Assembly: GCF_964355755.1 (NCBI RefSeq)
Contig: NC_092671.1
Location: 563,001-627,000, forward strand
Source of the DNA: Antedon mediterranea
Lineage: Eukaryota > Echinodermata > Crinoidea > Comatulida > Antedonidae
DNA length: 64,000 bases
Direction: 5' to 3'
Shown here in pieces: positions 4,069-63,874 of the stretch; the first letter of the stretch is position 1, and the number at the start of each line of letters is the position of its first letter. The notes under the pieces were generated by a model. The model was not told the origin of the DNA. It did no database searches and saw only the letters and a program-made list of their open reading frames with translations. A program made the translations under genes and the position numbers.

Positions 4069-7000
4069 CTACCAAAAAAAAAATCAATCAAAACACCATT
4101 TAAAAAAAGTTTCATTATATTTAAAGAAAAAAAAAACAGAAAAAAATGAACTCAAGCGAAGTTAAATTTTCTCTGCTCATCTTAAGCTCTCTCTACACTA
4201 TGATGTGCCCATATATGGACATGATGATGTCATAGCAATACCATATTTAAGCATATCACTACCATACCTGTATATGGGCACATCACATTTTTGTTTGATA
4301 AGTGTAGTCAGAGCTTTAACAATCCAATAAATATATTACGTTTACAGCAGATTTTAACAGTTCTGTAGATTTAACAGCTTTACTATGTATAAAAGGAAAA
4401 AAAATAATTACTTGAATCTTGACGTAGAGGGTGCACTACATGTATGTCAAAAGGTCGGTGAAGTGTGGTCTGCATGACCTCAGCACCTTCACCTGTCCAT
4501 TTATTTGCCCTGTTGATAGTCTTCACGTTCCAGTCTGTCCAGTAGACATAATCTTCAAAGACAGTGACAGCAAATGGATGGCCTACTCCCTCATCAAGAA
4601 GAAGAGTAACACCAGATCCATCTAAATTAGAATACCTAAAGACAAATTTATAATGTACCTTGTAAAAGCAATAACATATAATATAACGTATACAGAATAA
4701 TACTGGGCAGTACAAGAAAAGTACATTACTTTAATGAGCCTACACCTTGTAATAAATAATATACATATAAAAATAATTAATTTATTATTTATTCAACTTT
4801 GCTACCATGGTAGCTCTGAATACAGAATACAGTATATCTCTATTATGGGCACGTCATGTTTGTATACAAAATTCTTTATTGTCCTAAAAAATGAAAATGC
4901 TATTGCCGATTACTGACAACAAATAAGCTTAATTTATCTGTACTTTAAATTTCCAATATTTAAAATTTATGTTATAATTAGTTATGTAAGGCTTTTGTTG
5001 CTGTAATGTATTTCTTATGGATTTTTTATTTTTTTAAATAAAGTGTACCTGAATATAACTACAAAGACCCTCATTTCAATTTTAAGCTATGTCTACATCC
5101 ATCAAATTGTACGTGACAAAATATGATGTACCCATATATGGACATGATGATGTCATATCACTACCATATTTGGGCATATCACTACTATATTTGGGCACAT
5201 CACACTATATTTGTTAAACTAGTTTGATAATGTAGACAGAGCTTTATACTTACACAATATGATCAAGATGTGCGTCTGCCCAATAGAGTTTATCAGTTTC
5301 AAAACAGATAGTAAGTCCATTAGGCCAACCAACAAGATCATCATGAAATTCAGTGGCACCTGTACCATCCATACTGGATCTACCAATGTATGGTCTTAAC
5401 CCCCAGTCAGACCAGTATAAGTAGCTGCAAAGTAAACAAATATAAATATATTATCAACTGTATTATACTTCTTTATTTCTTTCATTAGGCACGTTCATAT
5501 AACATTTTTTTGGAAACATACTCCCATAATGCAGCTAGTAATCAGAGCAAAGTTGTGTCTTGATGTAACCGGATTCACATTTATACACCTGGGTGGAGAG
5601 AGGCAAATGTAATGCAGCTAGTAATCAGAGAAAAGTTGTGTCTTGATGTAACCGGGTACCCATTTATACACCTGGGTGGAGAGAGGCAAATGTAAGTATA
5701 GTATCTTGCCTAAGGATACAAGCAATGCGACGAGAGTTGGATTCGAACCTCGATCTCACAATCAGTATTCGAACGTCCAACACACTGCGCCACACGCCCT
5801 TACTCAGTAAAATGACTGTCTTGATCATGATCAGTGCAAATTTGTTTAAATATGAATATTAATTTATATATATATCAGGATAGTTGTATTATATTGACTG
5901 TGTGTTAGTGTCTTTTTCAAATTTACTCACCCGTTTCGTGGATCTACAGTAATACCTCTGGGATCAAATAGATTATCTCTTATAATTGTCTTTCTGGACG
6001 TGCCATCCAAATTTGCAACATCTATTGTATCCAAGCCTCGGTCTGTCCAATATATTTTCCTATTTAAAAAAACAAAATATTTGTCAATGGATAAAATGTT
6101 TGTTTTCTTTTTAACAAATACAAAGAGAGTCTAAAAGGTAAAGATAAATTCATTTATAGAATAGTATTTTTTTTTTTCATCAAATGATTTGTTAGTTTAA
6201 ATTTTTTCAGAAGCCAATAGATCAAATAATTTATGTTTTGAAGAATAAGAATCTAGTTTATGACAACATTCTATGCACATATAGCTATATATCTGTATTG
6301 TAGTATCCTTCATAATCTATTAATAATTACGCCGCACAAAACCAAATCTTTAAATGTAATGTACCTGCCAATCCAATCAATAGCTATGCCTTCTCCTTCT
6401 TCTATATCATTTGCAACGATAGTTGTCTTAGCTGAGCCATCTAACTTTGATCGTACAATTTGTTTAGCTAGGTAGTCTATGCTATACATCTCTTCCCGCT
6501 CCAAATCAAAGTCAGTTGCTGCCACAAGATAAAACCCATCAGACAAAAGTTGATAATCATCTCCAGTGAGACCAATGCGTCGAATGTAATGATTATTACT
6601 GAATAGTAAGTAAGGATCAATGTCTAAATTATGAAAGAAAATAAATTCAATTAAAGTTAATATTTATTTCTATACATAAAGATATTAGATTAAACACTGT
6701 AGAGTATTAAATGTTTTGCCCTACTGTGATGTAATTGTACTGTACAATATATATTGAAAACTTGAATTTGCTTTGGGACTTAATACTATAGTAATACTGT
6801 AGTTGAATTATCATCATGAAAATAATAACGTACTAAAAACAATACAATGTACATTAAATTCTTCAAAATCAAAACACTCTGCAACATATTGTCTGTTGGA
6901 GTGGAAGGCAAGGATTGGCAAGAGTGACGATTGCTGCCAGTGCTCTCTGTTTTCTTTAATTTATTGGTTAAAATATTTGAAAAGGTTCTTAAAGATGCTA

Positions 7001-17041: not shown

Positions 17042-20000
17042 TTATAAGTTATAAGAAAATAATTTAAAGTCCATCAAATATCTTTGATAAATCGAATACA
17101 CTAAATCTTCGGATAAGTTTGAATAATATTTTTCAACCATCATTTGACTTGAAGAATTAGTCCCATGGGTTGATTTAGGAGGCAAAACACCAGAAATGTT
17201 CAATAACTTCATTAGAGAATTGTATTCCTTTTTATCGTAAATATTTTCAAATTTTTCAATCACATCGTATTTAACTTCACACGGAAGACAAAGCTTATAC
17301 ATTTCTCGCCAGTGTTCTTCAAAATCATTTGGAAATGTGTTATCAAAATCGCTTACATACCGTACGAATTCTTTGAAAGAAAGGCTATTGCCTTTTTCAA
17401 GTCCATATTTATCTTGAATCTTTTCAATAAAAATTGATCTAGGAAAAAACTCATCGGCCCATTCTGGTTCTAATTTATCTCTGAATGCACTTAATAATCT
17501 CGTAAAGGGGTTTCTAACAACCATTATTTTGGTAGAATTTTTAAATATGTTAAGTATATCGGGTTTAGTCAAATCTGAAAGTTTAACAGAATGTTCATTA
17601 AACACCCTGTGAACGTCTAGTGGCATCGACTCTACATTTGCATAAATCTTGGAAGATATAAGTAATAATCGTTTGAGAGTGGTACTGGTCGCTTTTGGAA
17701 TGGCACAGAACACAATTCCACTTTTATTGACATAGTAAAGGTGATCAAACCGATGACGAGCGAAGTAGGAATTGTTTGTTTCTTTGTATTGATCTCCGTT
17801 GCACACTCTCCAGATGTTTAGTTGTCTTTCTCGTTGGACTTCCTCAAAGGTGCATTCTTCCACACTACAATTCTGTCAACAAAAAAGAAATGTTATACCA
17901 GAATATTAGGCTTACTATTCCATGCAGAACTCAACTTGTTTCTTTGTGCAACTTAATAAAGAAAATACAATATCAATTATTATTTGGGCAGATGCAAACA
18001 ACTGCAATTTGAAAACCATTCATTTAAAGCAAAAGAAAATAATTAGACTTTGTACCAACTCATCCTGGCTGGCCCATACTGCACCCTTATTTTTAAAATT
18101 AAAAACTTTCAATCTATGATATTCATAAATTACAAAAAGCAATTTTTATGTTTAATTTTGTTAATAATAATCTACCAAGTAATTTCAATACTTTTTGAGA
18201 TAGGGTAAAAGAAACACATTGTCACAATACAAGAACATTAAATGATTTGTGTCCTCATAATTTCAGAACAGACCTGGGAATGAATACCATTAAACGGCAA
18301 GGACCTATATTGTGGAATGATATAAGCAATTTTATTAAGAACCAATGTACCTTAAGTTTATTTAAGAAGACATTTATTCACAGTTTATTATCAACGTATC
18401 AGTAATATTATGTTATATTATTTAATTAGTAGAGTAACATTATTTAAGTTTACTTAAACAATATATATATATAAATGAGCTATGCTCGACGCGATTATGA
18501 GATCATGTTCCGAATATGAGCACTGTTTCTATAATTTACAGTATGATTTATATATATACATATATATGTGTGTGTATGTAAATCTATTACATTTTTTATC
18601 TAAAAGATGATATTCAGATTTTATTACCATGTACTAGTAAAAATAAAAATAACTATATGTAATCTTCATGTTAACCTTCTTAAGAAGTAAGTTAAAAATT
18701 ATCATTTTATGATCAAAAAGAAATATACTATCTAATTTTCTCCTTTATATAAATATATTATTTTATCCAAGGGGTTGCAAACACAAGTGTTCAATTGTCT
18801 TGTTATGTATTGCACCTTTATCTTGTCTTTATGTTGTCTGTAATGTCACTGCACTAACGGGTGACCGGCTAACGAGCTTCGCTCTTACGGTTATCCATCC
18901 ATATAAGTTGTTTATCTTATGTTCATAAATTGAAATGGAAAATAAACTGAAACTGAAACTGAAAATTGGACATTGTTTCTATATTTGTGATTTTCGAAAT
19001 CCAATGATTACCAGTGTGCTAGTTAATCTATAAAATGTAAAATGAAATGTATAGATTATCATCATTATCACCACAAATTAAGAGATAACACTAGACCACC
19101 ATTAACATTTATAAATAGTTAATGATCATACCTTCATAAAATGTTTAACAATAACAGGTGCGTTCTGTCTTTGTACAACCGGTTGAGGATGTCGTGATCT
19201 GTATCGTTTCTGTGTACCTAAAAAGTCAAGACCAATGCAAATTAATTTAAATTCTTTTATGTTTGAAGTTTTTAACATGATACCGTTAAGCTTTCGTATT
19301 CATAATCATCCGTTACCCTTTGGTAGTGTGTTAATACGCATAATACTTTTGCAAATCCTTAAATATTCTTTGATAATGCAACAGAGTAGTGGTAAGGCAC
19401 AAGTGGGCTAAACATTGATATTACCTGTATAAAATGTCCTTCATTTTATAAAATTAGATCTAGGAAACTAGGGTATACATCTATTGTTTAATGACCCATG
19501 CAATTAATAACCAACGTGAAATATATTTGGATTATCGATTTATTTGAATCAGAGGGCGCACTGTGAACTGGCTGCACAAGTTCTCTAGTAACCGAATTAT
19601 ATCTAAAGCCAGCTCTGTCTACACAATCAAACTAATTTGACAAAAAAAGTGTGATGTGCCTAAATATGGTAGTGATATGATGACTATATGCGCACATCAC
19701 ATTTTTTCCAAGTTTGATAGTGTAGATAGAGCTTAACAGGCTACAAAATGTATCTCGTAATCAAAATGTATTCATTACACTCAAATACCATACAATTTTG
19801 TAGGATCTTGGTCGTTAAAAGGAAATTAACTATTCGAATAATATACACTCTTTGATTTTTAATTAGATTTTACTATACGCCTACACTGTTAATTCACAAT
19901 AATGTGACAGTACACAGGATGAACATTAAGAACACCCTGATTGGCTATTACCTACATCAGTTACTTCCGATATTCGCTGAAATCAAATTAAAAAGTCGGT

Positions 20001-24667: not shown

Positions 24668-27600
24668 ATGTGGATGTTTTTACTGTTAGGTTTTTTAACA
24701 ATTAATTCCAGTTGTCATGGACAGGGTAAGTTTTTTAGATTTTTTTTAGTTTTCTTTCCATTATCATTGGCTGATTATAAGCAGCTTTTGATTCATTCAT
24801 TCGCTTTGGTTTAAGAATGGCATATTGAATGTGGAATATTTGAGAAAAACTTGATTTAAACTTACTTAACTCAATATATATTGATTTATGTATAAAATAT
24901 ATTATAATATCTAATATTTTACCCACCCACGTAATACATAGGCGTAAGTCATAAGAACTTACATCGAAGCAGCAGTGCCAAAGAGAATTCGTTCTTTATA
25001 ATTAAAATATCCTCTAACTGTTTCTATTTATCCATTTATTCACTTTAATTATAGTTATTCATATTTACGATAAGGATCACCCATTCATATAATTGATATT
25101 CTAACAAATACAAATTTATCTTTTTAAAGAAACTGTAGGAGGCCTATTTAAGTATTGTATATATTCCATTTCCCACAGGCTATGGATCAAAAACACCCGA
25201 TACAAGAGGACGCCAGTTCGTATTCGGAATTCCGAGTAATGTTCGGCAACCAGACAAAATTATTATGATAGTCACGGGACATGAACTGGGGGCTAACAAA
25301 ATAGACGTCAATATTCCAGGCCTCAGATTCCAAAGATCTCAAATGATAAACGGGCTTGAAGAAGCGCGTATACTTCTACCCCCGACAGCAGCAGCTCATG
25401 GATGTGCTATCCAAAATGGAACCGTATTGGTTTCTTCAACGAAAGACGTGTCCGTGGCCGTCTTAAACGATATTGCAAAATCAACAGAAGCCTTTCTAGT
25501 GATTCCTGTGGATGCGTTAGGAACGGAATACTTCGTTGCTTCGTACGACCCACTCCCGGAAGAGTTCTCAGAAGTAGTGATAACCGCGACTATGGATAAC
25601 ACAAGAATAAAGGTTACATTCCAGGCACCGGTCACATACAACGGTATGTCTTACTCGCCTGGTGATATATACACTTTCACACTTCCTCGATTGAGAAGCA
25701 TTCAATTTCAAAGTCATATGGATTTGACAGGAACAAGAATCCAATCAACCGCGCCCGTAGCAGTAGTTAGTGGCAACACGTGTACGCTTGTTCCAGGCAG
25801 ATTACCAAGATGTGACCATTTAGTTGAAATGGTACCACCTGTCCCCACTTGGGGAGGTATGTTCACGGTAATGCCATTTTTAAATCGTACATCTGGTTAT
25901 ATCTTTCGAGTTATCGCAGCACGTGCTAGAACAACTGTTCAAATCTCTGGTACATCAGTTTATCTCCAGAACCAAGGCGAGTTTCAAGAGTTTAATGTTC
26001 CGAGCGATACAATTACAACCATCAGTGCTAACCAACCAATTATGACAATCCAATTTTCAAAGGGACGAGATAGTGACGAAATCGGCGATCCGTGCATGAT
26101 ATTAATCCCACCCGTTGAACAGTACGTCAAAGACAAAGTTACTTTTGGTACATTCAACATGTCAGGTGGTGATTACTTTTCTCCTTATGTGAATATGATG
26201 ATATCATCTCCAGGTATAGTGAGTATGATTAACATCGCTGCTATTCCCTCCATGACGGGGACAACGTACGTCCCTGCTGCAGGAAAGATTGTGAGTTACG
26301 GAGGAGGAAGGTCAATGGCCTTGATGCAAGGAACACATACGATTGTGAATCCATCACCGGGCAATTCTTTCACTGCAATCACATACGGAATTGGTCCAAT
26401 GACGTCATATGGCTTTCCAACCGCTTACAACCTTAAAAAGTTGATATGTATTCGCAAAGATCCGACAACAGGTTAGACATTTCATTACTTTGATTTTGTA
26501 ATATCACATCATTCTAATGCTTTGTAATTTACTTTCCTTTCACTGCATCGGGCTATAATATTTCACGTGATCACTAAATACACGAAATGGGAAAATACAC
26601 ATATAGCGACAATCATTTATTATTTAAAATATTGTGGCAATTAACACAGAAGTTAGAATTTAGATCATTCGTATAAACCTTTTCGCCCAATTCTCACTAT
26701 TGGTTTTATTTCATAATAACTAATAAAAACATTGTTTAATTGCAGGTGGTGATGTCGAATACGTATGTCCTCAACCAGTTGACCCACCAATGCGTAATCC
26801 ATGTACCGGAACAAATGGAATACCGAGTCCAAGTGCACGGCAGGGCATGCAGAATCCAAATTCTAGGCCACCACCGAATCCTAATCCTAACCCAAATCCT
26901 AACCCAAATCCAGGTTCAAATCCTAATCCTAACAAACCAAATCCAAGAGCAGGAGAAGGTAATAATGGCGATCGGCCCGGGGAGCGGCCACCTGCACCCG
27001 GTACCCCCGGTGCAGGTATACCTGGTATGATGCCAGGTATGGGTATGCCAGGTATGGGTATGCCAGGTATGGGTATGCCAGGTATGGGTATGCCTGGCAT
27101 GGGAATGCCTGGCATGGGAATGCCTGGCATGGGAATGCCATGTAGTCCAGGAATGATGATGCCTGGAATGACAGGAATGGGAGGTTGCATGCCCGGCATG
27201 GGAGGGGCTGGTAATGCAGGTGTGGGTGTGCCTATTATGCCTGGAGTCGGTCTACCTGGACAAGCTGGTGGAGGCCCTGGATTCGGAGATGTGCCAGGAT
27301 ATGGATGGGCCTGGCGAACACCACCACCTCGGTTTCCAATCATTCCAACAATACCTGAAAGTAAGTCCTTTGAAATTATATGAGTATTTATTAGGAGCAG
27401 GATCCCGTTGCAAGGTCCGAGGTAAAAATTAAAAAAAAAACTGGTATTCAGAAGCTTTCTTTGTACTTCTGAAGCAAATAAACACAAATTACTAGTTAAT
27501 CTCGGTTCTTACTTGGACGCAATGACGTAAGCGCAACGCAATTGAGTTGAACAATCACGACGCGATCATCCGAACTGTTTTATGTATGTCTATTTTTAAT

Positions 27601-33672: not shown

Positions 33673-36600
33673 TTAAGACCAGTAATTAGAAATTGCATCC
33701 ATAGCAGATTTCTTAAGATCAATTCCTGCATAATATTTGAGAGCACCAAGAGAGACACCAGTGATTCCCATAGCTATCAAAGCCTTTAAAGCCTTGGTAC
33801 TCAACCTGAAACCTGGTAATCTAAAAAAAGAGATGGATTATTGAGAATGTTATCAATCTCTCCAACTGCCTACATAGTACTAGGATGTTAACTATTAGTC
33901 ACAAGTCCCTGTTTTCTTTTTATATAGCACCACAAGCGGGAGTTTTTTTTAAATATGCGATTCTAGCTGAAGTATGGTTATGACACGCCAAGGTTGGCAA
34001 AAATGTTTATTTAATTAACTTAAGCTGTATCATTATAACTATATAGCCACCAGGATGTTTGCATATACAAGCAGAAAATTCTTTTCACAGGTTTCCTCAC
34101 CGTTTATAAATTAACTTTCCAATAGATCACCAGGCGGTTTTAAGTTTGTCTATGCCTACAAAATTTATATCTAGTGAGAAAATGATCATATCATACCTTT
34201 CATCAGTTTCATGACAGTACCCTTCAAAATACAAATGTCTTCCATAAATATACACAAGGCTAACCACACTGGCCGCAACTAGAAAAAGGGTTTCATTTAA
34301 ACATTATGTAACATCTAAATATAAACATGCATGTACTTTGAAATGTATTTTTTTATTTATTTTAATATATTTTAATAGATAAATGTAGATCTCAACAAAA
34401 GTTGTCATGATAAACCTCTGTCAACAAAAGATATTCTTGTTTATTTTGTTATGAATTTTTTAAAAAGGGTGCCCTATGCATACTAATAAATCAGTGATTT
34501 CAAAAGTAACATTTTTTACTTTATGATAATATTTAAAAAGTGTATGTACTTCCATGGTGTATTACTCCATGGCACTTCTTACCTGGATGAAAATATATGG
34601 ATGCAACAGTGTGACTAGTTAAGAAAATTGGTGCAAATTCAAGGCTGTTTTGGCTGTTTAATGAAACAAAACTTAATATCAGTATCAAAAATGTTTCTTC
34701 AATCTATGAGTTGTTAAAAATATCACAGGCATTTACAAATATTTACATTCAGGCATTAGAATTATTTAAAAGGAAAAATATTGAAGGGAAAAACAACAAT
34801 GCACAGGTAGCCTAAGTGACTGGATTTTAATTGCTATTCAAAATTAACATCATGCAGAGATTAAACCACAAACCTTGAATCATACCAATCAGACAAAACC
34901 ACAAACCTTGAATCATACCAATCAGACAAAACCACAAACCTTGAATCATACCAATCAGACAAAACCACAAACCTTGAATCATACCAATCAGACAAAACCA
35001 CAAACCTTGAATCATACCAATCAGACAAAACCACAAACCTTGAATCATACCAATCAGACAAAACCACAAACCTTGAATCATACCAATCAGACAAAACCAC
35101 AAACCTTGAATCATACCAATCAGACAAAACCACAAACCTTGAATCATACCAATCAGACAAAACCACAAACTTGAATCATACCAATCAGACAAAACCACAA
35201 ACCTTGAATCATACCAATCAGACAAAACCACAAACCTTGAATCATACCAATCAGACAAAACCAAAACTACTGTATATTGCAGTTTGTCATTTATTTCTAT
35301 GGGATAAATCCAATGTAACAACAATTTTGAGAATTTATTTAAATTTGTGGATCCACTTTAGGTAATTTGTTTTTAAAAATGGAATTATCAAGGTTATTTC
35401 AACAATTATTCTTATCATTGTAATTTATATTCCATGCAGACATTATCAAAATATGTGTTCTTACGTACTGTGCTCGAAAAGCTCGAATGAACCCCGGGTC
35501 ACCTTCAGTTGCCGGTGGCTTAACCTTGAACTTAGCCCGAGCTTTACCCACCTTCATCGCAAATTGAGCTAAAAATTACAACAGAAATTTAATAACAACA
35601 GTCAATATATGCGACCTAATATGTGTGTATTAAAATAATTATCTAGGCCTAAAATAATTTTTTAAAATGTGAAGAAATAAATGCATCTTCATTCATAAAT
35701 TGGCCAAACTAAACACTTAGTGCTTCATATCCCTTTTCTGGGTGGGTAGGACACACGTAATGATATTTATTATTTCCAAAAAATAAAATTATTATTAAAT
35801 GTATAGGCAGGCCTATAAAGAGTCAAATATAAGTTGCGCACGCTTTTTACGGTATTGCTGAATCTGAAATTTTGAATACCAACGAATCCCCCATACCGCA
35901 ATCTGCAACCAGCAGGGTGTCCGATGAAATCGGTCGCGCTTGAAATCGGTCGCGCTTGAAATCGGTCGCGATAAAATCGACTTCCGGTATTTTGTATGGC
36001 GCGCCGCTAGAGCTATACTTTTGATTATATCGGTCGCGTTTGAAATCGGTCGCGTTATTTTGTATGGATCGAGCGGGATGCATGCTAGAGCGGGATATAC
36101 ATTTTTCGTTTACATATATTTAATTGATATTTTTTAGGAACTAGATTATTTATGTGGATATTTTTTATTTGGTTAATAAATATTTATTGTTAATCATTAA
36201 ATTAATTTTTTTTTTGTATTTCACAGGTCTCGGAGAAGGACTGTGTATGTTCAAAATGGCCATTTATAAACACGTTTAAATATTATATTAGGCATAATAT
36301 TATATAAGGCATATAATAATTTACCTCTATTTATATGTACTGTAATTAATATATTATATAGAGAATATACGTCTGTCGTGTCTTTTATTAATAATTATGC
36401 AAACAATTACGTATGGTTTTAGGATATTAATAAAATATATAGATAATATGCCGTTATAAATCAATCTACCGGCCTACAGTAGGACTATGATGTACAATGA
36501 TTGATGTGAGAATAATAATGTATGGATAATAAAGGTGGACACGATTCTCAAAGACTGAGGTAATCTGCACTGATATTTAAACATTTATATTTACGAACGG

Positions 36601-37931
36601 CGTATGAATGTGAGACACTGAGTTGCACTTACTTAAATTTACATTAAATGATTACTGTATTATAAATGAAGAAATAAAAGATATTCAAATTAAAATCTAT
36701 AGTATCGCCGACGTATATACGTAAATTATATATAAATCATACTGTCAACTGTCATCTTTACCTCGCCATGGACAACGATCGTACATGTTTTGTCCATGAG
36801 TTGACACACTAACAAGTGCGTGTTTTTTAAAAGGGGGAAACCCCGTCAGCAAAATAACGTATTGTGTTAGAGGAAACAGCTGCACGATCATAGAAGGCGC
36901 ATCTCCGATATGGCTTATGTGGGGGTTATTTCAGTTACTCGCCTTTTAACCATCCGCATATAATGATCATTTTACTAACAACTATTTTAAACCTCAGAAA
37001 TAAAAATATACACGTGATTTGCCTCAACAATAATCATTATACACTTAATATTATCCTACATAACGGATAGAAATAAAAATAAGGTGATCGAATAGTATGT
37101 TGTTAACGACATGGATATGATATAATCTGCCACAGTATGCATAGGTATAAAAATGGATACGCTGACTTTACGGGCTATATTGTAAAAATAATTGTTTTTA
37201 AATAAATTGTTCTCTTTTACGTATTTGTTTGCATAATAAAAGACACGGCAGACGTATATTCTCTATATAATATATTAATTGCAGTACATATAAATAGAGG
37301 TAAATTATTATATGCCTAATATAACATTATGCCTAATATAATATTTAAACGTGTTTAGAAATGGCCATTTTGAACAGACACAGTCCTTCTCCGAGACCTG
37401 TGAAATACAAAAAAAAATAATTAATTTAATGATTGATAATAAATATTTATTAACCAAGTAAAAAATATCCCCATAAATAATCTAGTTCCTAAAAAATAGC
37501 AATTAAATCTATATAAACGAAAAATGTTTATCCCGCTCTAGCATGCATCCCGCTCGATCCATACAAAATAGCGCGACCGATTTCAAACGCGACCGATTTC
37601 ATCAAAAGTATAGCTCTAGCGGCGCGCCATACAAAATACTGGAAGTTGATTTTATCGCGACCGATTTCAAACGCGACCGATTTCAGACGCGACCGATTTC
37701 ATCGTAAACCACCAGCAGTACCTAACCTGCACTTAGGTGGCTCGCCCAGCCCTGTTCACTAAGACTGGTGGTGGAGCAGCTCAGTGCACCCGTAATCACT
37801 ATCGGGGCTAAATAGGCTAGTTATAGTAGTAAATATGCAATTCATGTTACGTATGTAAACTCACCAAGCTGATAGGAAGACAAGAGTGCAACTGTTGCTG
37901 GTAAAACAAACGGTAAAACATGTTCTTCCAT
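33673..37931 (-). CDS. MGST2-like: MAPEG enzyme, microsomal glutathione S-transferase 2-like
   Basis: Integral membrane enzyme of the MAPEG family, expected in the endoplasmic reticulum as a trimer that conjugates glutathione to lipophilic substrates or leukotriene precursors. Exons in minus order are 37931-37865, 35568-35469, 34653-34583, 34278-34197 and 33820-33673. The phases close exactly, giving 155 residues. Family signatures are VGKARAKFKVKPP after helix 1, FIRAFRAHQNSLEFAPIF (glutathione-binding loop and helix 2), LVYIYGRHLYFEGY (helix 3) and RLPGFRLSTKALKAL before helix 4. The GFRLS match and the length favour MGST2 over MGST3 or FLAP. The exon 2 donor is GTACGT after GCACA; using GTAAG three bases later would break the frame. 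Intron 1 contains a foldback element and intron 2 a 33-bp minisatellite. Confidence 0.93.
34862..35264. repeat. 33-bp minisatellite, about 12 copies
   Basis: Near-identical units begin CCACAAACCTTGAATCATAC and continue with CAATCAGACAAAA. One unit near 35166 lacks one base. Because 33 is a multiple of three, several frames stay open by chance on both strands. It lies in intron 2 of the MGST2-like gene. Confidence 0.95.
35916..37710. mobile_element. Foldback DNA transposon, 1.8 kb, with about 490-bp inverted arms
   Basis: The ends read GGTGTCCGATGAAATCGG on the left and CCGATTTCATCGTAAACC on the right. ACCAGCAG flanks both sides (35908-35915 and 37711-37718), fitting an 8-bp target duplication. 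Arms of about 490 bp (35916-36415 and 37215-37710) are inverted copies. Each begins with short tandem copies of GAAATCGGTCGCG, then GCATGCTAGAGCGGGAT-like text and a shared CAGGTCTCGGAGAAGGACTG block. The central 800 bp have no long open frame, so the element is non-autonomous. It lies in intron 1 of the MGST2-like gene. Confidence 0.9.
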
Positions 37932-39592: not shown

Positions 39593-42500
39593 TTAAGGCG
39601 GTGGTAAATTATGATTTTCTAAGCCAAGAGGTGAAAGATTAAGTGGAACTAAAGAACAAACACAGCTGCTTGGTATTGCTACCCATTCTACAGATATTAC
39701 TGGCTTTGATGGGTCAGCACATGATTTGATTGTCACTGCTCGTCGCCATGCGTATTTCTGTTGACATTGACCAAATCCAAAGTTGCAGTATTTGAATCTG
39801 AAAATAAATAATTTTAGAATAAACTGATTATTGTTGCGGACAACACTCATTGGCTAAATAACTATGATCTTGATGAACCTATCTTTTTTAAACAACAGCG
39901 CCACCAATAATTGAAACATATGAGAGATATTTGCATGATTGAGAGTGGCAAAAGAGCACATGTTTATGTTTATCCACAAAAGTACGTTAAACTATACATT
40001 TTTTAACCAGGTGTCTAGACAATTATTTTTATTGCAAAAATAAAAACAGCATTGTGCCTTTCTAAAGTTATTATTATTGAAATAAAACTTACATGCATGC
40101 TTTGACTTGGAATGACTGTGCAATTTTCCCCGGTACTTGAAGCACTTGAACCACATCTCCATATTTATTATACGCTTTTGTGACAAGAATCTGGAAAAAG
40201 TGTTCTGGGCATGGCACACCAGGGTTGCGAAATGGCATAACAGGGATTGGTAGGGGCCCAAAACCTGGCATACCAGGTACACCGGGACTTCCATTGGGAC
40301 CTTGATCACCCGGAGGGCAATAATAAAACCCAACAACTTGTCCTCCATTATCTGTTGCTGGATTGAACGGAGTTGGTTCTTCTTCGGTTGCTGTAAGTAT
40401 ATTTAAACAATTAATATATAGCATTCTTTGTAATCCACCGTGTTGATGTAAGTATATTTAAACAATTAATATATAGCATTCTTTGTAATCCACCGTGTTG
40501 CTGTAAGTACATTTAAACAATTAATATATAGCATTCTTTGTAATCCACCGTGTTGATGTAAGTATATTCAAACAATTAATATATAGCATTCTTTGTAATC
40601 CACCGTGTTGATGTAAGTATATTTAAACAATTAATATATAGCATTCTTTGTAATCCACCGTGTTGATGTAAGTACATTTAAACAATTAATATATAGCATT
40701 CTTTGTAATCCACCGTGTTGATGTAAGTACATTTAAACAATTAATATATAGCATTCTTTGTAATCCACCGTGTTGATGTAAGTATATTTAAACAATTAAT
40801 ATATAGCATTCTTTGTAATCCACCGTGTTGATGTAAGTATATTTAAACAATTAATATATAGCATTCTTTGTAATCCACCGTGTTGATGTAAGTAGAAACT
40901 TCTTTTTTTAAAAAAACTTGATTTTTAAAGTATGAAGTTATCGTTTTCTAGTTATAACATAACAATCATTTAAACTTACGGGTTTTCTGACAAATGTACC
41001 CTAATTTTCGATTGCAGTTATAATCATCCCATTTATAATCATCAACGGATCGCAATCGAACGCAATTCTGATTTGTTCCTCCATTTCGGCCACCTTGTGC
41101 AAAATCATAAAAGGTTGGTTGCTCTCCAGTTACCCATTCGAAGTTGCGCTCGCGGCGTCTATCTGATAGCCCGATCCAAAGATCTCCCGCGTATAGGTCT
41201 CTGGCTCTCTGCTGGACGAAACTTCCGATATCTGGATCTGTCAAGACTACGAGGTTGCCATTGTCGTTTTCACAAGACCTTTGAGCTTCTTGGAATGTCA
41301 AAGCTGGACTCAAAGCGAAGCAATAGCACTTTCCACCATGTGATTCAAATGGTGGTCTACATTCTGAGTAAAATAATTAGTATCATAAAATAATAATTGC
41401 TTTTGAACTATGTAGTGTGCGAGAAACACCACTAAATATTCTCTGATCAGCTTGACTAAACTTTGTTTACAACTTACTTCCATCAAATTCTTGAGTGACG
41501 GATGACCCACCAGGCCCACCTACACCACCAGGTCCACCAGCACCGCCTTGTCCTCCCGCAGGAATGTCTAACCTCTCACCAACATACGTATTTCTGAATC
41601 CACCATGGAAAGCAAACGGTCTATATGTAAAGAAATATTGCTGCAATTATGTCTATAATATAATATTTTAAAAGTTTCTAATATAAATGTAGGTACAGGA
41701 GGTTTCGGTGTACTAAGCATTAGCATTAGAAATTATACATCTATTTATTTAGTTTATTCGTTTCTCCTCATTTTGTGAGACTTATCTCATTGCTCGTTTC
41801 CATGACGTAATCTCCATCTTGTGGTCTCTTGTTTGTTTGTTGATTTCTAATATCATTTTCCTGGTTATAATCTAATTGTTAAATCTCCTTAGTTAAAGTG
41901 AAAACATTTCCCACCCACATATGGATGAAATGGATGAAACATGCAAATTAATATACTTACGTCACCGGTTCTGGGCTTGCGTATGGCTCGTCATTGTTCA
42001 ATATACACTCGTAATCTTCTTTTATCTTTCTCAGGACATTATCTCCAAGTTTACTGAAAAGAATGAATGTAGATAACTATATAAATTTCGGTTGACATTA
42101 GTGTAACCTGAAGTTTCTCAAACCTGCTTAATGCAATATTGTTCAAGATGAATAAACTTACGCTATACATGACGACAAATCTTCAACTGCTCCCCAACAC
42201 GATACCACCAATAAACACGTGAAAATGGTTATTGCATTTACTCTCTGTGGAATGTTCAATTTACAATTAAAGGTAATAACATGAAAATGTTTTTGATTAA
42301 AGTTATCAGTAATTGTCAACTTTATACAACAACAAACTTTAAGTAAATATCTTACTTAAGAATAATTTAAGAAATATTTCTGATTCAAATATAATGTAAG
42401 CCAACATAAGCCAATTAATATTCATTTCATTTAATTTCATTATTTATTTGGTCTATTTAAGTATATGCAAAACAAAAAAAACTGAAATTGGGGAGACCAG

Positions 42501-44138
42501 GGTCAACCTAAGTGAACTTAATCACTGTAGCTGAGCCGGTGACGTAAAGCGGACGCATTGCAGATGGAATATTTTGATTCAGCAATTATTATATGTAGCT
42601 ATGTAGCGTTTGGAAGATGTATCATAATAATATTATTATGTAAGGAATGTTTATATGACAGATATTTATCATTCATAATAGAAATGGCATTATTCTATAT
42701 AAATTATGTTTCATTGTAACCACACGGCACGCCTAATAAAAGTTATAAGAGGTTTGAAGTAGACAACAGTACAATTACTCGCTAGCGTGTGCGTACATTG
42801 TTCAACAACACTTGTCTACCTCTAGTGTTTACAGATTCGTGCAGAGATCTCATTGCCCTTGTTTCACTAATAATGTATTCGGATTTTAAGTTAATTCTTC
42901 CATAAGTTAAACGATTATAGAAACCACATGACATGATAGAACATTATTTGTGTTTGTGTTTACATGGGCGTTTAACACAATGATTAATGAAAGCAAAGTA
43001 TTTCCGTTGAATATTCATTAATTCATTTGTTTTTAATAATTATTTTAGGTTAATACTCTAACTTTGCTGTATGTTCATTCATTCAATAGCATGTAGGCCA
43101 TTGGTGCAATAGCATGTAGGCCATTGGTCCAATAGCATGTAGGCCACTGTTCCAATAGCATGTAGGCCACTGGTCCAATAGCATGTAGGCCATTGGTGCA
43201 ATAGCATGTAGGCCATTGGTCCAATAGCATGTAGGCCACTGGTCCAATAGCATGTAGGCCACTGGTCCAATAGCATGTAGGCCGCTGGTGCAATAGCATG
43301 TAGGCCACTGGTGCAATAGCATGTAGGCCACTGGTCCAATAGCATGTAGGCCACTGGTCCAATAGCATGTAGGCCACTGGTCCAATAGCATGTAGGCCGC
43401 TGGTCCAAGTACAATAATATACATATATTTAAATTGGAGTAGTAGTAACAGCAAATATGCGAATATTAGTTTAATTTCTCGTTCAAAAACAAAATAGGGG
43501 TAGTATAAAGTAATTTATCAGCTAATTATGTCATTTTCCTAAATAAAAATTGTACAAATGTTACCAAAAAAGGTATCGCTAAACATGTGATAAACATTGG
43601 CATGTTCTCAACAACAAAAATAAATCAAGTAAGTCCAAGGAAGTTAGGTTTGAAACAAACTAACCATCGGCGTGGTATTTATGCAAGATTCTATACTAAA
43701 GTAAACTGTAAACTATTAAAAACTTAAGTATTTTATTAAGCTTCAACTGTCTATAAAAAATAAAAGATCTATATTTTAGAGATTCTCTAAAAGCAAAATA
43801 ACACACGGTAATATAAAAGCTAAAACGTTACGCCTGTTATTTTTATTATCTTTTATTGACAACTGGGAATAACAGTGTCCAACATGGCATACAAATAGTA
43901 GGCGATACAAGCATGAAAATAGCAATAACAAACTTAAATAATATTTTCACTAACTTTAAGAACTTCAAAAACAAATTTTGACAGTAATAAAGGTTCAATA
44001 GAGAATAAAAACACAAGGCTATGACAATGTGTGTGTGCAGTAAATGGGCATTCACATAATGCGTGAAATTTGCCGCATTTACAAAGAAGTTCATCAACAA
44101 CGATCTAAAAGTAAAATAATTTAAAAAAAACATACCAT
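39593..44138 (-). CDS. Secreted C-type lectin fused to Spaetzle/neurotrophin-like cystine-knot domain
   Basis: Seven coding exons in minus order: 44138-44136 (only the ATG), 42244-42162, 42053-41961, 41620-41478, 41363-40980, 40390-40093 and 39797-39593. They give 402 residues with all phases closing. Order: signal peptide (MRVNAITIFTCLLVVSCWGA); an N-terminal module (KIKEDYECILNNDEPY) also present in the neighbour gene; a Gly-rich linker (about residues 80-100); a C-type lectin domain (about 109-235: LWIGLSDRRRERNFEWVTG, NCVRL, KWDDYNC, LGYICQK); a short collagen-like Gly-Pro part; a C-terminal cysteine-rich domain. That domain has Q-S-F-x-V-x-A-C-x4-C-x6-C-x-Q-K-Y and ends W-V-A-I-P-S-S-C-V-C, like Spaetzle. 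The lectin lacks a clear EPN or QPD sugar motif. Knot assignment is inferred from spacing; lectin is firm. The upstream sister gene is at 47894-50527. Confidence 0.87.
40391..40890. repeat. 55-bp tandem array copying a 3' splice site, about 9 units
   Basis: Units of 55 bp recur from the exon 6 acceptor of the lectin-knot gene into intron 5. In gene sense each unit ends TTTAAATATACTTACA, the same text that precedes the real CAG/CAACC acceptor. Most copies read ACATC there and lack the AG. The copy near 40501 keeps ACAGCAAC and could act as a cryptic acceptor, but it leads to a stop within about 30 bases. Confidence 0.92.
43083..43410. repeat. 23-bp minisatellite, about 14 copies
   Basis: Units read CAATAGCATGTAGGCCA, then YTGGTS; variable sites are C/T, G/C and an occasional G. 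It lies in intron 1 of the lectin-knot gene. The long open frames on the minus strand in all three phases are a by-product of the repeat, not genes. Confidence 0.95.
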
Positions 44139-47100
44139 GTCTTTTTTTGGTTCACAAAATCTAAGTTGAAATTGTTCGTTTTCAAGTCAATCAATTGATG
44201 GTGCGGCGGCCTACTGCACTAGAACATGTATCTGCAACAAGTTGACAAAGCATAGTAAGTACCGCCTTAATCTGACGGTTAGCATACGGTGTTGGGAGTT
44301 AAGTACCGAATGAATTCATCCAATCTATATCCCTCAAAGACTGTTCGATATACACTCAAGTGTTTGATGACCTGTTTCACTGTAACTTATCCATCTGGGA
44401 GAAGTTCATGGTAAATCTCATTATTAGTAAATTAATTAAAACTACTGGGCGTGATTTAAAAAATAGTTGAGTAGATGTTTGATATTTTCGTTCGCCTACG
44501 TACTGTATATTGTGGCAGTGTGTTATTTTCGTTCACATACGTACTGTATATTGTGAAAATTTCTTCTGAATTCAAAAATAAATGTAGTGATTTACTTGAT
44601 ACAATAAAAGTATTGCTAGAGTTTCTTACGCATACAAAAGTATTGCGAGAGTTTCTTGCGCATACAAAAGTATTGCGAGAGTTTCTTGCGCATACAAAAG
44701 TATTGCGAGAGTTTCTTGCGCATACAAAAGTATTGCAAGAGTTTCTTGCTCATACAAAAGTATTGCGAGAGTTTCTTGCTCATACAAAAGTATTGCGAGA
44801 GTTTCTTGCGCATACAAAAGTATTGCGAGAGTTTCTTGCGCATACAAAAGTATTGCGAGAGTTTCTTGCTCATACAAAAGTATTGCGAGAGTTTCTTGCG
44901 CATACAAAAGTATTGCGAGAGTTTCTTGCTCATACAAAAGTATTGCAAGAGTTTCTTGCTCATACAAAAGTATTGCGAGAGTTTCTTGCGCATACAAAAG
45001 TATTGCGAGAGTTTCTTGCTCATACAAAAGTATTGCGAGAGTTTCTTGCTCATACAAAAGTATTGCGAGAGTTTCTTGCTCATACAAAAGTATTGCGAGA
45101 GTTTCTTGCTCATACAAAAGTATTGCAAGAGTTTCTTGCGCATACAAAAGTATTGCGAGAGTTTCTTGCGCATACAAAAGTATTGCGAGAGTTTCTTGCG
45201 CATACAAAAGTATTGCGAGAGTTTCTTGCTCATACAAAAGTATTGCGAGAGTTTCTTGCGCATACAAAAGTATTGCGAGAGTTTCTTGCGCATACAAAAG
45301 TATTGCGAGAGTTTCTTGCTCATACAAAAGTATTGCGAGAGTTTCTTGCTCATACAAAAGTATTGCGAAAGTTTCTTGCGCATACAAAAGTATTGCAAGA
45401 GTTTCTTGCTCATACAAAAGTATTGCGAGAGTTTCTTGCTCATACAAAAGTATTGCGAGAGTTTCTTGCTCATACAAAAGTATTGCGAGAGTTTCTTGCT
45501 CATACAAAAGTATTGCGAGAGTTTCTTGCGCATACAAAAGTATTGCGAGAGTTTCTTGCGCATACAAAAGTATTGCGAGAGTTTCTTGCTCATACAAAAG
45601 TATTGCAAGAGTTTCTTGCGCATACAAAAGTATTGCGAGAGTTTCTTGCTCATACAAAAGTATTGCAAGAGTTTCTTGCGCATACAAAAGTATTGCGAGA
45701 GTTTCTTGCTCATACAAAAGTATTGCAAGAGTTTCTTGCGCATACAAAAGTATTGCGAGAGTTTCTTGCTCATACAAAAGTATTGCGAGAGTTTCTTGCG
45801 CATACAAAAGTATTGCGAGAGTTTCTTGCTCATACAAAAGTATTGCAAGAGTTTCTTGCTCATACAAAAGTATTGCGAGAGTTTCTTGCGCATACAAAAG
45901 TATTGCGAGAGTTTCTTGCTCATACAAAAGTATTGCGAAAGTTTCTTGCTCATACAAAAGTATTGCGAGAGTTTCTTGCGCATACAAAAGTATTGCGAGA
46001 GTTTCTTGCGCATACAAAAGTATTGCGAGAGTTTCTTGCTCATACAAAAGTATTGCGAGAGTTTCTTGCGCATACAAAAGTATTGCGAGAGTTTCTTGCG
46101 CATATAAAAGTATTTTGAGAGTTTCTTGCATATACAAAAGTATTGCGAGAGTTTCTTGCTCATACAAAAGTATTGCGAAAGTTTCTTCTGGAGAAAGAAT
46201 ACGTAAATTATTATTCGATTCTCCTTCTTCTGTTAACATATATTTTTGTTCCAATTTTATATTGTTGAATTTGAATTTCTTACAAGTTCTCACAACTGTG
46301 ACTGACAACATATTACACTGAGAACATATGCTATTCCAAGGGTTTAGCAACCATATATATTTTTTGAGTGACGTTACTATATTTAATTTGGTCAAGAGTA
46401 CTTCATCGAAGTTGGCTAATGAAGGTCAAAAGTGTATTTTATTATTTTCATTATTTATATACTTATTTCTTCATGGTCAACCAGTCAATGATTTGTTTAG
46501 AATCCTTTTCTAAATAACAGTATTGTACTATGCTATGGTTACACAGAGAAATGTGTCCAGAAGAATGTCCAGAAACAATAGCTTAAGAGAAGAAGAAATG
46601 GTGAAAAATGCTTTAGGAGAGTTTAAAATTCTGTAATATATATGATTTTTGATTAAAACTGATTAATATCATCTTCAAAATTACAATTCATTTCTTTTTG
46701 TATAATTAATAAAATACTCATAAAGCCATGATATGGTGTTAACACTAAAACAATGATAGGGTTACTGCTAATAATATAGGAAGCTTTCAATTTTGCCGAA
46801 TCTTAAGTGAATATCACCTTGTATAATATTAGGTTCTGTTGTACAAAAATAGAACGCTCTCAATGATAAGCAGGAAGAAAACATTAATAATAAACACAAA
46901 TCTGATAAATACTGTATTGTGTTTTTATTTCTATTGTGTATAAAGTGCGGCAACCATATTAAGCATGTTTTACAGAAACATGACAAGCACAAAATTAAAT
47001 AACAAACGTGCAAAGAGGATTGATCTTGTGAAATGGAAAGTTCCGTACAATTTAATTGATTGGATTTTAGTATAAACAAGATTAGATTGAGTCTTGAAGG

Positions 47101-47893: not shown

Positions 47894-50527
47894 TTACCAG
47901 CTGTAAATTTCAGACCTTCTACGGTTTTCTTCCGCCAAAAGAAATAGATCTCTAAAAGATGGAGCTTGGAAGCATTCACACGAACATGGTAATGCAATCC
48001 ATTCGATCTTTAATACTGGAAGTAGACGATTGAATGTTGCATGGTGTTCACAGTTCTTGACGATCAAAGCTCGTCTCCAACAATACTTTTGAATGCAGCT
48101 TCCAACCCCTCGGTTACACCGTGCATTACTGTAAAAGAAGACATTACTGTAAAAGAAGACATTACTGTTTTCAGCATTCACGTTTTGTAACTCTCAATAC
48201 GAGATTTGTTTTAAATTTAAAAACAAATATCCCTTAGTAGAAGACACATTTGCTACAGTGTATAGTTGTTGAAAAAAACTCTTTCCTAACACATTTATTT
48301 CATGATTTGAAAGGACTTACCGACAAACGGTGATCCTTGGTTTTTGTAAAAGATTCATAGCAGGATTCGGATTATGAGATTGAAAGAGCCGAACCTTTTG
48401 TCCATATTGGTTAAATGCAGAGTCAATAGGTCTCATTCTTGTTCTACCAGGACACATTTCACCAGGGACATATCCGGGAACAAAGATACCAGCATTTCCT
48501 CCATTTCCACCGTTACCACCATCTCCACCTGCACCACCATCCATACACGGCGCTCCTTGTGCACCGGGTCCCCCAGCCCCTCCCGCTCCTCCGTCACCAC
48601 CACTGCCACCAAATCCGCCGAATCCTCCATTACCACCAGTTCCTCCCGTTCCTCCGCTTCCACCAGGAGCCGCCCCAGCACCTCCACTACCCCCGTTACC
48701 ACCACTTCCTAAAGAAAACATTCACATATTATTTTCTATTGTCGTAATATTTGTGGCAAATGATCCTGATTACATCATTTTATGATTGCTATATTTTAAT
48801 ATAATAATCATATGTGGTTTTACCTCCGTCTCCAAATACTCCAGCGTTTCCTCCATTACCACCGTTTCCACCCGTTCCACCTGTATCGCCTACTCTGAAC
48901 GCGGGGCCTGCATTACCCCCATTACCACCGTTACCGCCATTCATTGTATCAATCACATACTGCTCTGGCCTAAAGTAAATAAATAATACATTTAGAAAAA
49001 AAACTATTGGATTTGAAATCGATTCAATATTGCGACCTTTATCTCTAACATTGTAGTATTAATTAGAATTGGAGAGTGATTGATTTGGAAAAAAAAGTAT
49101 AATTTTACGTCACCGTTGCTAAACTTCAGTTGTTTTTAAAAGAAGAAAATAAGTAGTTCTTTCCAAAGACCTTTTTAACCAACAAGACAATGGTGTAATT
49201 AAAAGCAAGCATACGGTGTTCAATGATGAACCAAGTTGATATCGAGGCGTACGTAACTCAACGACTCTTGACAACATACGTGAATAGAAGTACTCAACGT
49301 TTTAAGTTTCGTTTTAAGTTTATCAAGTTTACTATCTTTTTTTTGTAATATCATCAGTATCAATAGTATTACTTGTCTTCGTTTTTATTGAACGATTAAA
49401 AAGGCACATTGCATAATAAGAAAGTCCGTCCTACATGAATGTGTGTCCCCACCACCACAAATTGAGGCATTATATACACGCACGTGTGGCTTGTGCAACA
49501 CACACAACGGTAACATTTTAACTACTGTATTAATCGAACTATTTATGTTAACCAATCAAATAAATTTTATAACTTACGATATAGTATCTGGGCTTTCAAA
49601 CGGTTCGTCTTCGTACAGACATCCATACCTTTCTTTAACATCTTGTATAAATTCTGCAGTTAATGATGTACGTCTAGATAAAACAAAACACGTACTTAAT
49701 TAATAATATCGGTAATAACACCTTTAATTTTATGCCGGACATAAATTATAATAATGACGAATACATATGACATAGAAATAGCCTGTAGATAAACTTTATT
49801 CGTCAAAAATTGAATTTTTTTTTTTTAAATTGTCTTCCTTGGCAAGATAGGATATGAAATATATTTAAAATACGATACAAAAATATAAACATTGCAACAT
49901 TTAAAATTCCGAATTAAAAGTTCTCTTAAATTTTGAATTAAAAGTTCTCTTAAATTTTGAATTAAAAGTTCTCTTAAATTTTGAATTAAAAGTTCTCTTA
50001 AATTTTGAATTAAAATTGTGTATTGGGTTTGGAATACAAATGATTAATGTTGTATGTTACCTATAATGTGTACTTATGAAACAAAACCAAAATGATATAA
50101 TACCAATAATAGCAACAACAACCAAGCAATACCAATCCCTTACCCTATACATAAAAGCAATGATTCAAACGTTGGGTTTCGTGGAGGCAAGTAACTGTAG
50201 TATGGGTCTGGGCCGACGGCTGCACCATTTACTTGAATACATAATATACATGTCAAGAAAGCCGACAAAATCTAATTTTAAAATCAGTAAAACAATATAC
50301 AATTAGCCTAAAAGTTTCAAATATATTTCATATTTACTTCAGCTTCCGCTATAATCCATATAGCAATAACATGTGATACTCGCGTGTATTATTTCGAGTA
50401 AACTTCGAGTTAAGCTAAATTTTATTCACAAGTTGAACTTAAAACTATAAAGCAGTTATACTTATCCAATAAATGAAAAAAATAAAACATTTATAATAAA
50501 ATAAAAATAATTTACCGTTTTAAACAT
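47894..50527 (-). CDS. Secreted Gly-rich protein with Spaetzle/neurotrophin-like cystine-knot domain
   Basis: Six coding exons in minus order: 50527-50516 (MFKT), 50271-50144, 49673-49578, 48969-48824, 48708-48321 and 48128-47894, giving 334 residues. Order: signal peptide (KTILSAFLTCILCIQVNG); the shared N-terminal module (DVKERYGCLYEDEPFESPD, which aligns with the neighbour's); a long Gly-Gly-Asn and Gly-Gly-Ala-rich linker (about residues 88-200); a C-terminal cysteine domain (TVC-x4-C-x6-C-x-Q-K-Y-C-W-R-R-A, ending W-I-A-L-P-C-S-C-E-C). The spacings C-x4-C-x6-C-x14-C equal those of the downstream paralog. There is no lectin domain. Spaetzle and neurotrophins are secreted dimeric ligands for Toll- and Trk-type receptors; the relation here rests on Cys, Gln-Lys-Tyr and Trp patterns and is not proven. 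The last acceptor is triplicated, so 6 or 12 extra residues are possible. Confidence 0.84.
48125..48167 (-). promoter_or_regulatory. Triplicated in-frame 3' splice site (18-bp repeat)
   Basis: In gene sense, CAG/TAATG occurs three times, giving exon right borders at 48128, 48146 and 48164. The 18-nt spacing preserves frame and would add NVFFYS once or twice. The two inner sites have a good tract (CTTCTTTTACAG); the outermost (GCTGAAAACAG) is weak. Confidence 0.8.
49911..50012. repeat. 24-bp tandem repeat, about 4 copies
   Basis: Units read GAATTAAAAGTTCTCTTAAA plus TTTT. It lies in the intron between exons 50271-50144 and 49673-49578 of the Gly-rich knot gene. Confidence 0.92.
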
Positions 50528-62068: not shown

Positions 62069-62287
62069 TAAGAGCGTTCCGACTTAATTGACACACATTT
62101 GGCAATGTTTTATGCTATCGTATTCAAGTAGTTTTTAAAGAGAAAAAAAACTACTAATCGATAGTGTGGCTTCTGGCTGAATAATTGGCTGTCATGAACA
62201 GAAGAACTACTTGTTCTTGGATAATAATTACTGTGTTTGTTTATATACCATAGGCTGCAGAGTATCATTAAGAATTAAGCCGTGAAT

Positions 62288-63874
62288 ATGAACGTAAAGA
62301 CGGGAGAGTCTTATGCTGAACGAAGCACTGGACTTGGCGCCAAAATACTGGTTCTTGGGGACAGCGGAGTCGGTAAGACCCGCCTAGTTAGACGCTTTGT
62401 AGAAGATACTTTTATTCCACGCTATGTTGCTACAGTTGGGGTTGATTTCAGATCAAAGGCTGTCAAAGTAGGAGGAAAAGAATTGATGCTGCAAATATGG
62501 GATACAGCGGGTCAAGAGCGTTTTCGATCCATGACAACAACTATTTTCAGAGGTGCAGAAGGTAAGATCACTTTGTTTGGTACCTTTACCGCTTCATGGG
62601 TGTGTGCGCACACAATAAATGTAATGATTATTAATTGTTAATGATGATTAAGATGATAATGGTGACGATAAGTATGACAATGGTTTTGAATTTGACGACA
62701 TGTTAAGGTCCAAAACGATTTATTGTTGACACGCTTTCATCAGTGACGACGATATGATCCTAATAGAGATGATGACAATGATAATGATGACATTAAATAT
62801 GAGAATGACGATGATGATATAGCAAAATTGATGACAATGACGACATAATGTTAACGGTTTACAGGTTGGCATGCATTCATCATAGTTAATTATTATAATG
62901 TTATTCTAGAATGTCGATAATGAGGCCTATGATAAACCTAATTTATAATGGGTAATTCAAATTACACAATGTCCATGTGTAGCGTATTCGACGACGCATT
63001 TTAAATTGATTGATACCATAAACTAATACAGCAACATCAGGGAAATGTAATCGTTCAGTTTTTAATCAATAAGTGATCACGTGACAGAGTAATCATTCAA
63101 TTGGAATAGGCTTATGTTGTTTAAAAATATGTAATCAACACTCATTAATAATTACAAACATGAGATGAGCAAAATACGCGAGACATTGTCAATGTCAGTA
63201 CTCTGTGTGTCGTGGTGTAAGTGACAATTCACATTACAAAAGAATGAATGAATGTTCAAAAGTTAATGATGAGTCAAATACTGAATATTATTAATGTAAT
63301 AGTAACCATCTAGATTGATCATTCTAATGATGTTAGACTATTTGAGCATAGTTACACGAACATATTGGATTGCCAAATAATGATTGTTAATGCAATTATT
63401 AAATTCATTTCGATCGAATAATACCACACATAATATGAGGTTATTACTTTTAGTATAGGCCTATGCATTGTATTCATAGAAGCTATTTTAATGTCAACTA
63501 TTATATTTTTTATAGGCGCAATTTTAGTTTACGATGTATCATCGCGAGTATCGTTTGATCATCTAGAAGATTGGATAGAAAGTATACGAAAGAGTGCTGA
63601 CCAAAACATACGAGTGGTTGTTGTTGGCAACAAAACGGATAAAGAAGACCAAATCGAGGTTGACGCGCGTACTGGCAAGAAATTTTCCGAACTAATGGGA
63701 TTGAACTTCTTTGAAACTAGCGCGCAATCTGGCAAAAATGTTGACAAACCGTTTAACAGGTTAGCAAAGGAAATACTGGAAGCACGACAAATTACAGAAA
63801 CACAATTATTTGAACAAGAGAGGAATAAGGTGCCTATTTCTGAAGAAAAGAAAACATTTGAATGTCTATGCTAG
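62288..63874 (+). CDS. Rab-family small GTPase
   Basis: Membrane-trafficking GTPase of 210 residues in two exons, 62288-62561 and 63516-63874, joined in phase 1 (GAAG/GTAAGA, TTATAG/GC). I start at the ATG at 62288, since the codon two before it is GTG. All nucleotide-binding motifs are present: GDSGVGKT (residues 24-31), VGVDF in switch I (about 50-54), WDTAGQERF (71-79), NKTD (130-133) and ETSA (158-161). The C-terminus ends CLC, a CxC site for double geranylgeranylation typical of Rabs. RabF-like features (IWDTAGQERFRSMTTTIFRG, GAILVYD) support Rab rather than Ras or Rho. The exact subfamily cannot be fixed by eye. The intron (62562-63515) is rich in imperfect GATGA repeats. Confidence 0.95.
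62640..62860. repeat. GAT/GACGA-rich low-complexity stretch
   Basis: Imperfect ATGATGA, GATGACAATG and GACGATGATGATAT runs lie in the Rab intron. They have no coding support. Confidence 0.7.

Follow-up and report, generated by a model that had tools for sequence, protein, structure and literature searches.

A predicted fusion of a C-type lectin domain with a Spaetzle/neurotrophin-type cystine knot in the feather star Antedon mediterranea

The Spaetzle proteins (Spz/DNT) of arthropods are Toll ligands, and Spaetzle reaches Toll via a protease cascade which relays a recognition made elsewhere; we know of no Spz protein with lectin or Gly-Gly-X parts. Among deuterostomes, Sp-NT2, the Spaetzle-like second neurotrophin of the sea urchin, is described as grouping with acorn worm sequences and as having a Spz-like proline, an extra cysteine that is also found in NTb, and a precursor encoded in several exons (PMC2772990). 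Here, we describe gene A of the feather star Antedon mediterranea (Echinodermata, Crinoidea), in which a C-type lectin domain is predicted to precede a cystine knot of the Spaetzle/neurotrophin kind. The gene lies on the minus strand at positions 39593-44138 of G000:C2:563001-627000, the 64,000-nucleotide stretch of DNA that was analysed and that is referred to as the window.

Gene A resembled Spaetzle in the order of its six knot cysteines, in the glutamine before the second of them, in the proline before the last cysteines, and in its best-scoring profile. It differed in that its ending, P-S-S-C-V-C, lacks the extra cysteine beside the fifth knot cysteine and in that an additional cysteine lies between knot cysteines IV and V. 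With the canonical neurotrophins (NGF, NT-3, and BDNF) it shared the predicted fold and a weak profile match below the NGF cut-off, whereas two further Antedon knot loci, E1 and E3, scored above that cut-off and the genome has a separate NGF match. The predicted knot also had its fold in common with horseshoe crab coagulogen, in which we know of no lectin domain. The ambulacrarian NT2-type neurotrophins (Sp-NT2 and acorn worm NTa and NTb), which are deuterostome neurotrophin relatives, were compared by description only, and the available part of that description mentions no lectin domain for them (PMC2772990). The shrimp C-type lectin MjCC-CL, which is reported to activate Domeless, likewise combines a lectin with an effector part directed at a cytokine receptor, as proposed below for gene A; its effector is a coiled coil and not a cystine knot (PMC5645147).

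The initial annotation of gene A had proposed a single gene of seven exons. Bordered by GT/AG sites, these can be spliced in frame into a predicted protein of 402 amino acids, and exons 2 to 7 were found letter for letter in P0001, a public "uncharacterized protein" of Antedon mediterranea with 447 amino acids, for which the protein search listed the lectin as the only domain. Since P0001 has exons 2 to 7 on one chain, lectin and knot are united in the public annotation as well. The start, in contrast, is ambiguous. The original version is an exon consisting of the ATG only (44136-44138, donor GTATGT), placed before the signal segment, which fits sister gene B, whose first coding exon is likewise very short and in the same place; P0001 matches exactly a different first coding exon of 46 codons (42797-42934). 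The remaining exons, all on the minus strand, encode a hydrophobic signal segment followed by a short segment with two cysteines common to gene B, the first of which lies in exon 2 (42162-42244) and the second in exon 3 (41961-42053); a Gly-Gly-X stretch, GGQGGAGGPGGVGGPGGS (exon 4, 41478-41620); the C-type lectin domain, in an exon that is symmetric (phase 1-1) by its intron phases (exon 5, 40980-41363); five collagen-like Gly-X-Y triplets, GDQGPNGSPGVPGMP, with the first half of the knot (exon 6, 40093-40390); and the second half of the knot, ending in WVAIPSSCVC, with a tail and the stop (exon 7, 39593-39797). The collagen-like part claimed at first was limited to these five triplets, the other glycine stretch being Gly-Gly-X. 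In the intron between the lectin and knot exons, a 55-bp tandem repeat of about 0.5 kb (40387-40894, strand unassigned) reaches the exon 6 splice acceptor; its last unit holds that acceptor, and a unit near 40501 with the same ACAG/CAAC junction is a possible cryptic acceptor. Rfam gave no match at gathering scores.

Both domains named in the initial annotation were recovered. Lectin_C was matched over residues 129-234 with 71.8 bits against a cut-off of 22.6 (Pfam; E value of 9.3e-20), and the domain had many C-type lectin matches in the PDB, headed by chains of the mannose receptor family, in which several domains are summed. The C-terminal domain has seven cysteines. For the knot alone, Spaetzle (PF16077) was the best Pfam family, with a score of 27.4 bits (cut-off, 27; E value of 5.4e-6); for the whole protein, the score was 24.2 bits, below the cut-off (E value of 5.1e-5). 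NGF (PF00243) was second, with 12.6 bits against a cut-off of 27 (E value of 0.16), which is short of a canonical neurotrophin, and these two were the only Pfam knot families matched. When compared with 40 shuffles in which the cysteines were fixed, the knot scored 22.4 with Spz (shuffle maximum, 17.4) and 19.9 with NGF (18.7) in hhalign. Six of the cysteines are in family order (C296, C334, C339, C346, C380, and C382), with a glutamine seven residues before C334, and by analogy they presumably pair as C296-C346, C334-C380, and C339-C382. A proline, as used to define a strict Spaetzle, stands ahead of the final cysteine cluster (A-I-P-S-S-C-V-C); the criterion is that of PMC2772990, and we take the residue to be Pro136 of that study, an equation which is our own.

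A C-terminal domain without a knot fold had been named beforehand as one of two outcomes that would refute the proposal. The fold came out in the prediction, at moderate confidence, as a neurotrophin-type cystine knot matching neurotrophins and coagulogen, and the fold predicted for gene B was likewise of the knot type. Apart from coagulogen, the leading block of structural matches for gene A consisted of neurotrophins; for gene B, coagulogen headed the VIA rows. Next after that block for gene A were IL-17, which was also in a second structural listing, and PDGF. The solved Spaetzle was absent among the best 50 structural matches listed for gene A; for gene B, it was found as 3e07 with an E value of 0.36. 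As judged by profile, by the order of its cysteines and glutamine, and by predicted fold, the gene A knot is a member of the Spaetzle/neurotrophin cystine-knot superfamily.

Gene B, a tandem paralogue without a lectin which the initial annotation of gene A had left unreported, occupies 47894-50527 on the minus strand, with six exons and a product of 334 amino acids identical to public protein P0002. Its first exon (50516-50527), as in P0002, is followed by exons for the signal and N-terminal segments (exon 2, 50144-50271), the N-terminal segment with the second cysteine common to gene A (exon 3, 49578-49673), Gly-Gly-X repeats (exon 4, 48824-48969), further such repeats with the first half of the knot (exon 5, 48321-48708), and the second half, A-L-P-C-S-C-E-C, and a tail (exon 6, 47894-48128). 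The product has 72 glycines in all and five Gly-Gly-X runs, and its Gly-rich part is far longer than that of gene A. As a whole protein, gene B matched Spaetzle weakly (9.8 bits; E value of 1.7; below the cut-off). The two knots were identical at 34 of 101 positions (blastp, 8e-21 in a two-sequence comparison), and a homologous knot in an adjoining tandem paralogue argues that the gene A knot is not due to chance. A signature pattern, which was written after both genes were known and is therefore not independent, had two matches in the window and none in 200 shuffles. The intron phases of the two genes are equal throughout (0, 2, 2, 1, then 2), the sole difference being the extra phase 1-1 lectin exon of gene A. 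Exon shuffling is known to leave a symmetric exon in a phase-1 intron. Because it is symmetric, the lectin exon could be skipped in frame, with a product of 274 residues. Between the genes, a minisatellite with a 30-bp unit repeated about 53 times (44606-46187) has long open frames on both strands and looks like a mechanical open reading frame, not a gene.

The Antedon genome (354 Mb, 18 contigs) contained further knots. In a search with exon 7 of gene A, four of four candidates matched: A, B, C (C2:3507160, plus strand), and D (C2:3497319, minus strand). The C exon returned A to D and, with E values of 0.017 to 0.081, the weaker loci E1 to E3 (C4:32.446-32.458 Mb) and F (C6:3.718 Mb), all eight candidates matching. 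The six loci beyond A and B lie at C2:3.49-3.51 Mb, C4:32.44-32.46 Mb, and C6:3.71-3.72 Mb, and most are clustered. As in A and B, a phase-2 intron connects Gly-Gly-X-rich exons with the knot end in C and D. The Pfam scan took in C, D, E1, E3, and F, with E1, E3, and F joined by eye and E2 left out, its first half not having been identified. Joined knot C scored 37.8 bits with Spaetzle and 16.6 with NGF; D, 16.8 (below the cut-off) and 12.8; E1, 40.5 and 27.6; and E3, 42.5 and 32.3, so that E1 and E3 exceeded both cut-offs. F scored 27.5 bits with Spaetzle over its first half and did not match NGF. A canonical neurotrophin was represented by a strong NGF match (91.3 bits) in a single open frame of 250 codons at G000:C2:39933087-39933398, and a knot-like frame ending VASCCAC (G000:C2:17744517-17744711) scored 23.2 bits, below the cut-off. 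The genome thus has at least eight Spaetzle-type knot loci and one canonical neurotrophin. Better-scoring paralogues in the same genome strengthen the homology of gene A to Spaetzle and the neurotrophins, and gene A appears to be a diverged representative of a group of Spaetzle-type neurotrophin relatives in crinoids. A whole-genome search with the Spaetzle family gave no match at 1e-3 among 7 candidates, and its controls were likewise without a match; in our view, this reflects the intron that interrupts the domain, since the search treats each exon separately. Two stretches of 10 kb immediately flanking the window yielded no further knot at E values up to 0.5; the one frame matched, with an E value of 0.17, contained a stop. 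The lectin exon was not found in five 10-kb stretches around C to F (best E values of 1.7 and 0.12), a search that did not extend to the two NGF loci, and among loci A to F, a lectin was seen in gene A alone.

The knots end in IPSCCAC (C), IQTCCVC (D), VPSCCVC (E1 and E3), VPSCCSC (E2), and LPGSCSC (F), so that C, D, and E1 to E3 have the final cluster C-C-x-C, whereas gene B has C-S-C-E-C and gene A has S-S-C-V-C. For want of C-C-x-C, gene A was filed in the superfamily and not as Spaetzle proper. Its seventh knot cysteine, C361, lies between knot cysteines IV and V and was common to all five knots aligned. In C, D, E1, and E3, C361 has a possible partner in the extra cysteine that adjoins the fifth knot cysteine; this position is a serine in gene A, so C361 is expected to be free there and may link two chains. 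In PDB sequence searches, the knot of gene A alone returned only three unrelated chains (E values of at least 0.27), and A, B, and the B protein of Anneissia gave no match; after C and D were added, neurotrophins (0.025 to 2.5), mosquito Spaetzle (2.5 to 2.6), and two unrelated chains (1.6) were found, a result that is suggestive only.

The gene B relative in Anneissia japonica, P0003, was 73% identical to gene B over the knot region and scored 13.4 bits (whole protein) and 14.2 bits (knot) with Spaetzle, both below the cut-off. It is publicly named "co-chaperone protein p23-1-like," probably a misannotation caused by the Gly-rich region. In a tree of 13 knots, gene A joined gene B and Anneissia B (94/96), and the two B proteins grouped together on short branches (93/94), both values being just under the tool's star and six of ten inner branches being open. 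From this grouping, the A/B split probably predates the Antedon-Anneissia split. No orthologue of gene A in other species was found by protein searches (4 candidates in one; 6948 candidates, with E values up to 1e-5, in the other) that required shared exact words and a length of 0.55 to 1.75 times the query; an Anneissia gene A may be lost, too divergent for a word-based search, or unannotated. A genome search with the lectin exon, in which 150 of 192 candidates were scored, gave 54 matches, and the 53 besides the exon itself were at most 39% identical, so that the exon is unlikely to have been inserted recently from a copy that still exists. No lectin-Spaetzle or lectin-neurotrophin fusion was described in the open-licence literature found by title or abstract start, in listings that were partly incomplete and in which accented spellings were unsearchable. 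A survey of bivalve C-type lectins, in the part available, mentions domain combinations without a cystine or growth-factor partner (PMC10140915). As read from its sequence, the fusion in gene A is real and unusual, belongs to a ligand superfamily that is already known, and has been seen in a single species; lectin and knot are each of a known kind, and it is for their combination that those listings gave no description.

We propose, with a probability of roughly 60%, that gene A encodes a secreted superfamily member which gained its lectin by exon shuffling. The arrangement is directly visible, and from it we infer that the phase 1-1 lectin exon entered the phase-1 intron that in gene B joins the Gly-rich exon directly to the knot exon. 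By analogy with the superfamily, the product would be secreted and its knot would dimerise and bind a Toll-, Trk-, or p75-like receptor at the cell surface; C361 may link the two chains. The lectin domain and the Gly-rich and collagen-like linkers would retain the ligand on host matrix or on a microbe, thereby increasing its local valency, and in-frame skipping of the lectin exon could provide tethered and free ligand from one gene.

Several observations bear on the proposed function. Calcium-dependent sugar binding by C-type lectins uses an EPN or QPD triplet plus WND. The gene A lectin has GRN where the aligned mannose-receptor domain has EPS, and WDD for WND, which makes classical calcium-dependent sugar binding doubtful; protein binding or calcium-independent binding would be as likely. 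A clear pro-domain cleavage site is also lacking, the only basic residue between K234 and the knot of gene A being R290, six residues before the knot, and there is none in the 108 residues before the knot of gene B. With so few basic residues, the knot probably stays attached to the Gly-rich part, at least in gene B. Without a canonical triplet or a clear cleavage site, "carbohydrate recognition" and "cytokine" are both unproven for gene A; of the original interpretation, membership of the Lectin_C family stands, and the carbohydrate-recognition role and signalling are the less supported parts. A ligand that is tethered or localised to a surface is the best-supported reading of gene A.

As the main rival, gene A could encode a protein of matrix, mucus, or clots, in which the Gly-Gly-X, collagen-like, lectin, and knot parts would be cross-linking modules of an extracellular polymer and the knot would be coagulogen-like and not a receptor ligand. 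This reading ranks first because of the fold in common with coagulogen and the richness of the family in glycine, and it draws on the place of coagulogen in the structural matches of both genes and on the composition of gene B, which makes a freed ligand doubtful. However, the knot of gene A scores best with Spaetzle, and E1 and E3 also exceed the NGF cut-off; we regard a structural role as possible but improbable. Alternatively, lectin and knot could be separate products of alternative processing. Retention of the intron after the lectin exon, which carries the 55-bp repeat up to the acceptor, would end translation within a few residues and yield a 239-residue lectin without a knot, and the skipped form would be a knot without a lectin. 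Against this, P0001 joins the two, the frame of the lectin exon has no methionine ahead of the domain, and the phases fit, so that we find separate products quite unlikely.

The knot could also be that of a different family of cystine-knot cytokines, for example IL-17 or PDGF, which supplied the next structural matches. This seems very improbable, as Spaetzle and NGF are the only Pfam knot families found for gene A and its six cysteines are in knot order. With IL-17, hhalign gave 11.1, under the maximum of 17.3 for 40 cysteine-fixed shuffles, whereas Spz and NGF exceeded theirs; PDGF was left out of this test. Both families had been considered for the C-x4-C and C-x-C spacing and for their place in the structural matches. 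Membership of IL-17 was ruled out by profile and shuffled controls and that of PDGF solely by the absent profile match.

Elsewhere in the window, two arrays of 16-bp units in opposite orientation about 1.7 kb apart (35925-35970 and 37656-37701) are suggestive of transposable element ends. An IgGFc-binding domain gene (25139-27383; PF17517, 1.1e-61) lies beside a frame of Gly-Met-Pro repeats, in which the DNA repeats in 15-bp units. LDL-receptor-type exons (2614-6663), a sulfotransferase (17042-17875; PF03567, 3.7e-41), and Ras-family GTPase exons (62279-63874) were also present.

A lectin-gated Toll/Trk-type ligand, a secreted protein that would sense a surface by its lectin domain, be the cytokine by its knot, and so couple recognition to receptor activation without the Spaetzle protease cascade, in a deuterostome lineage with a multi-member Spaetzle-like family, is a tentative idea that we regard as doubtful. 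If true, such a ligand, with a lectin-type domain of its own, would offer a natural way to test whether recognition and signalling can be coupled directly. The crinoid knot set, with its Spaetzle-type loci, its canonical neurotrophin, and two members that pass both cut-offs, bears on the divergence of Spaetzle and the neurotrophins in bilaterians.

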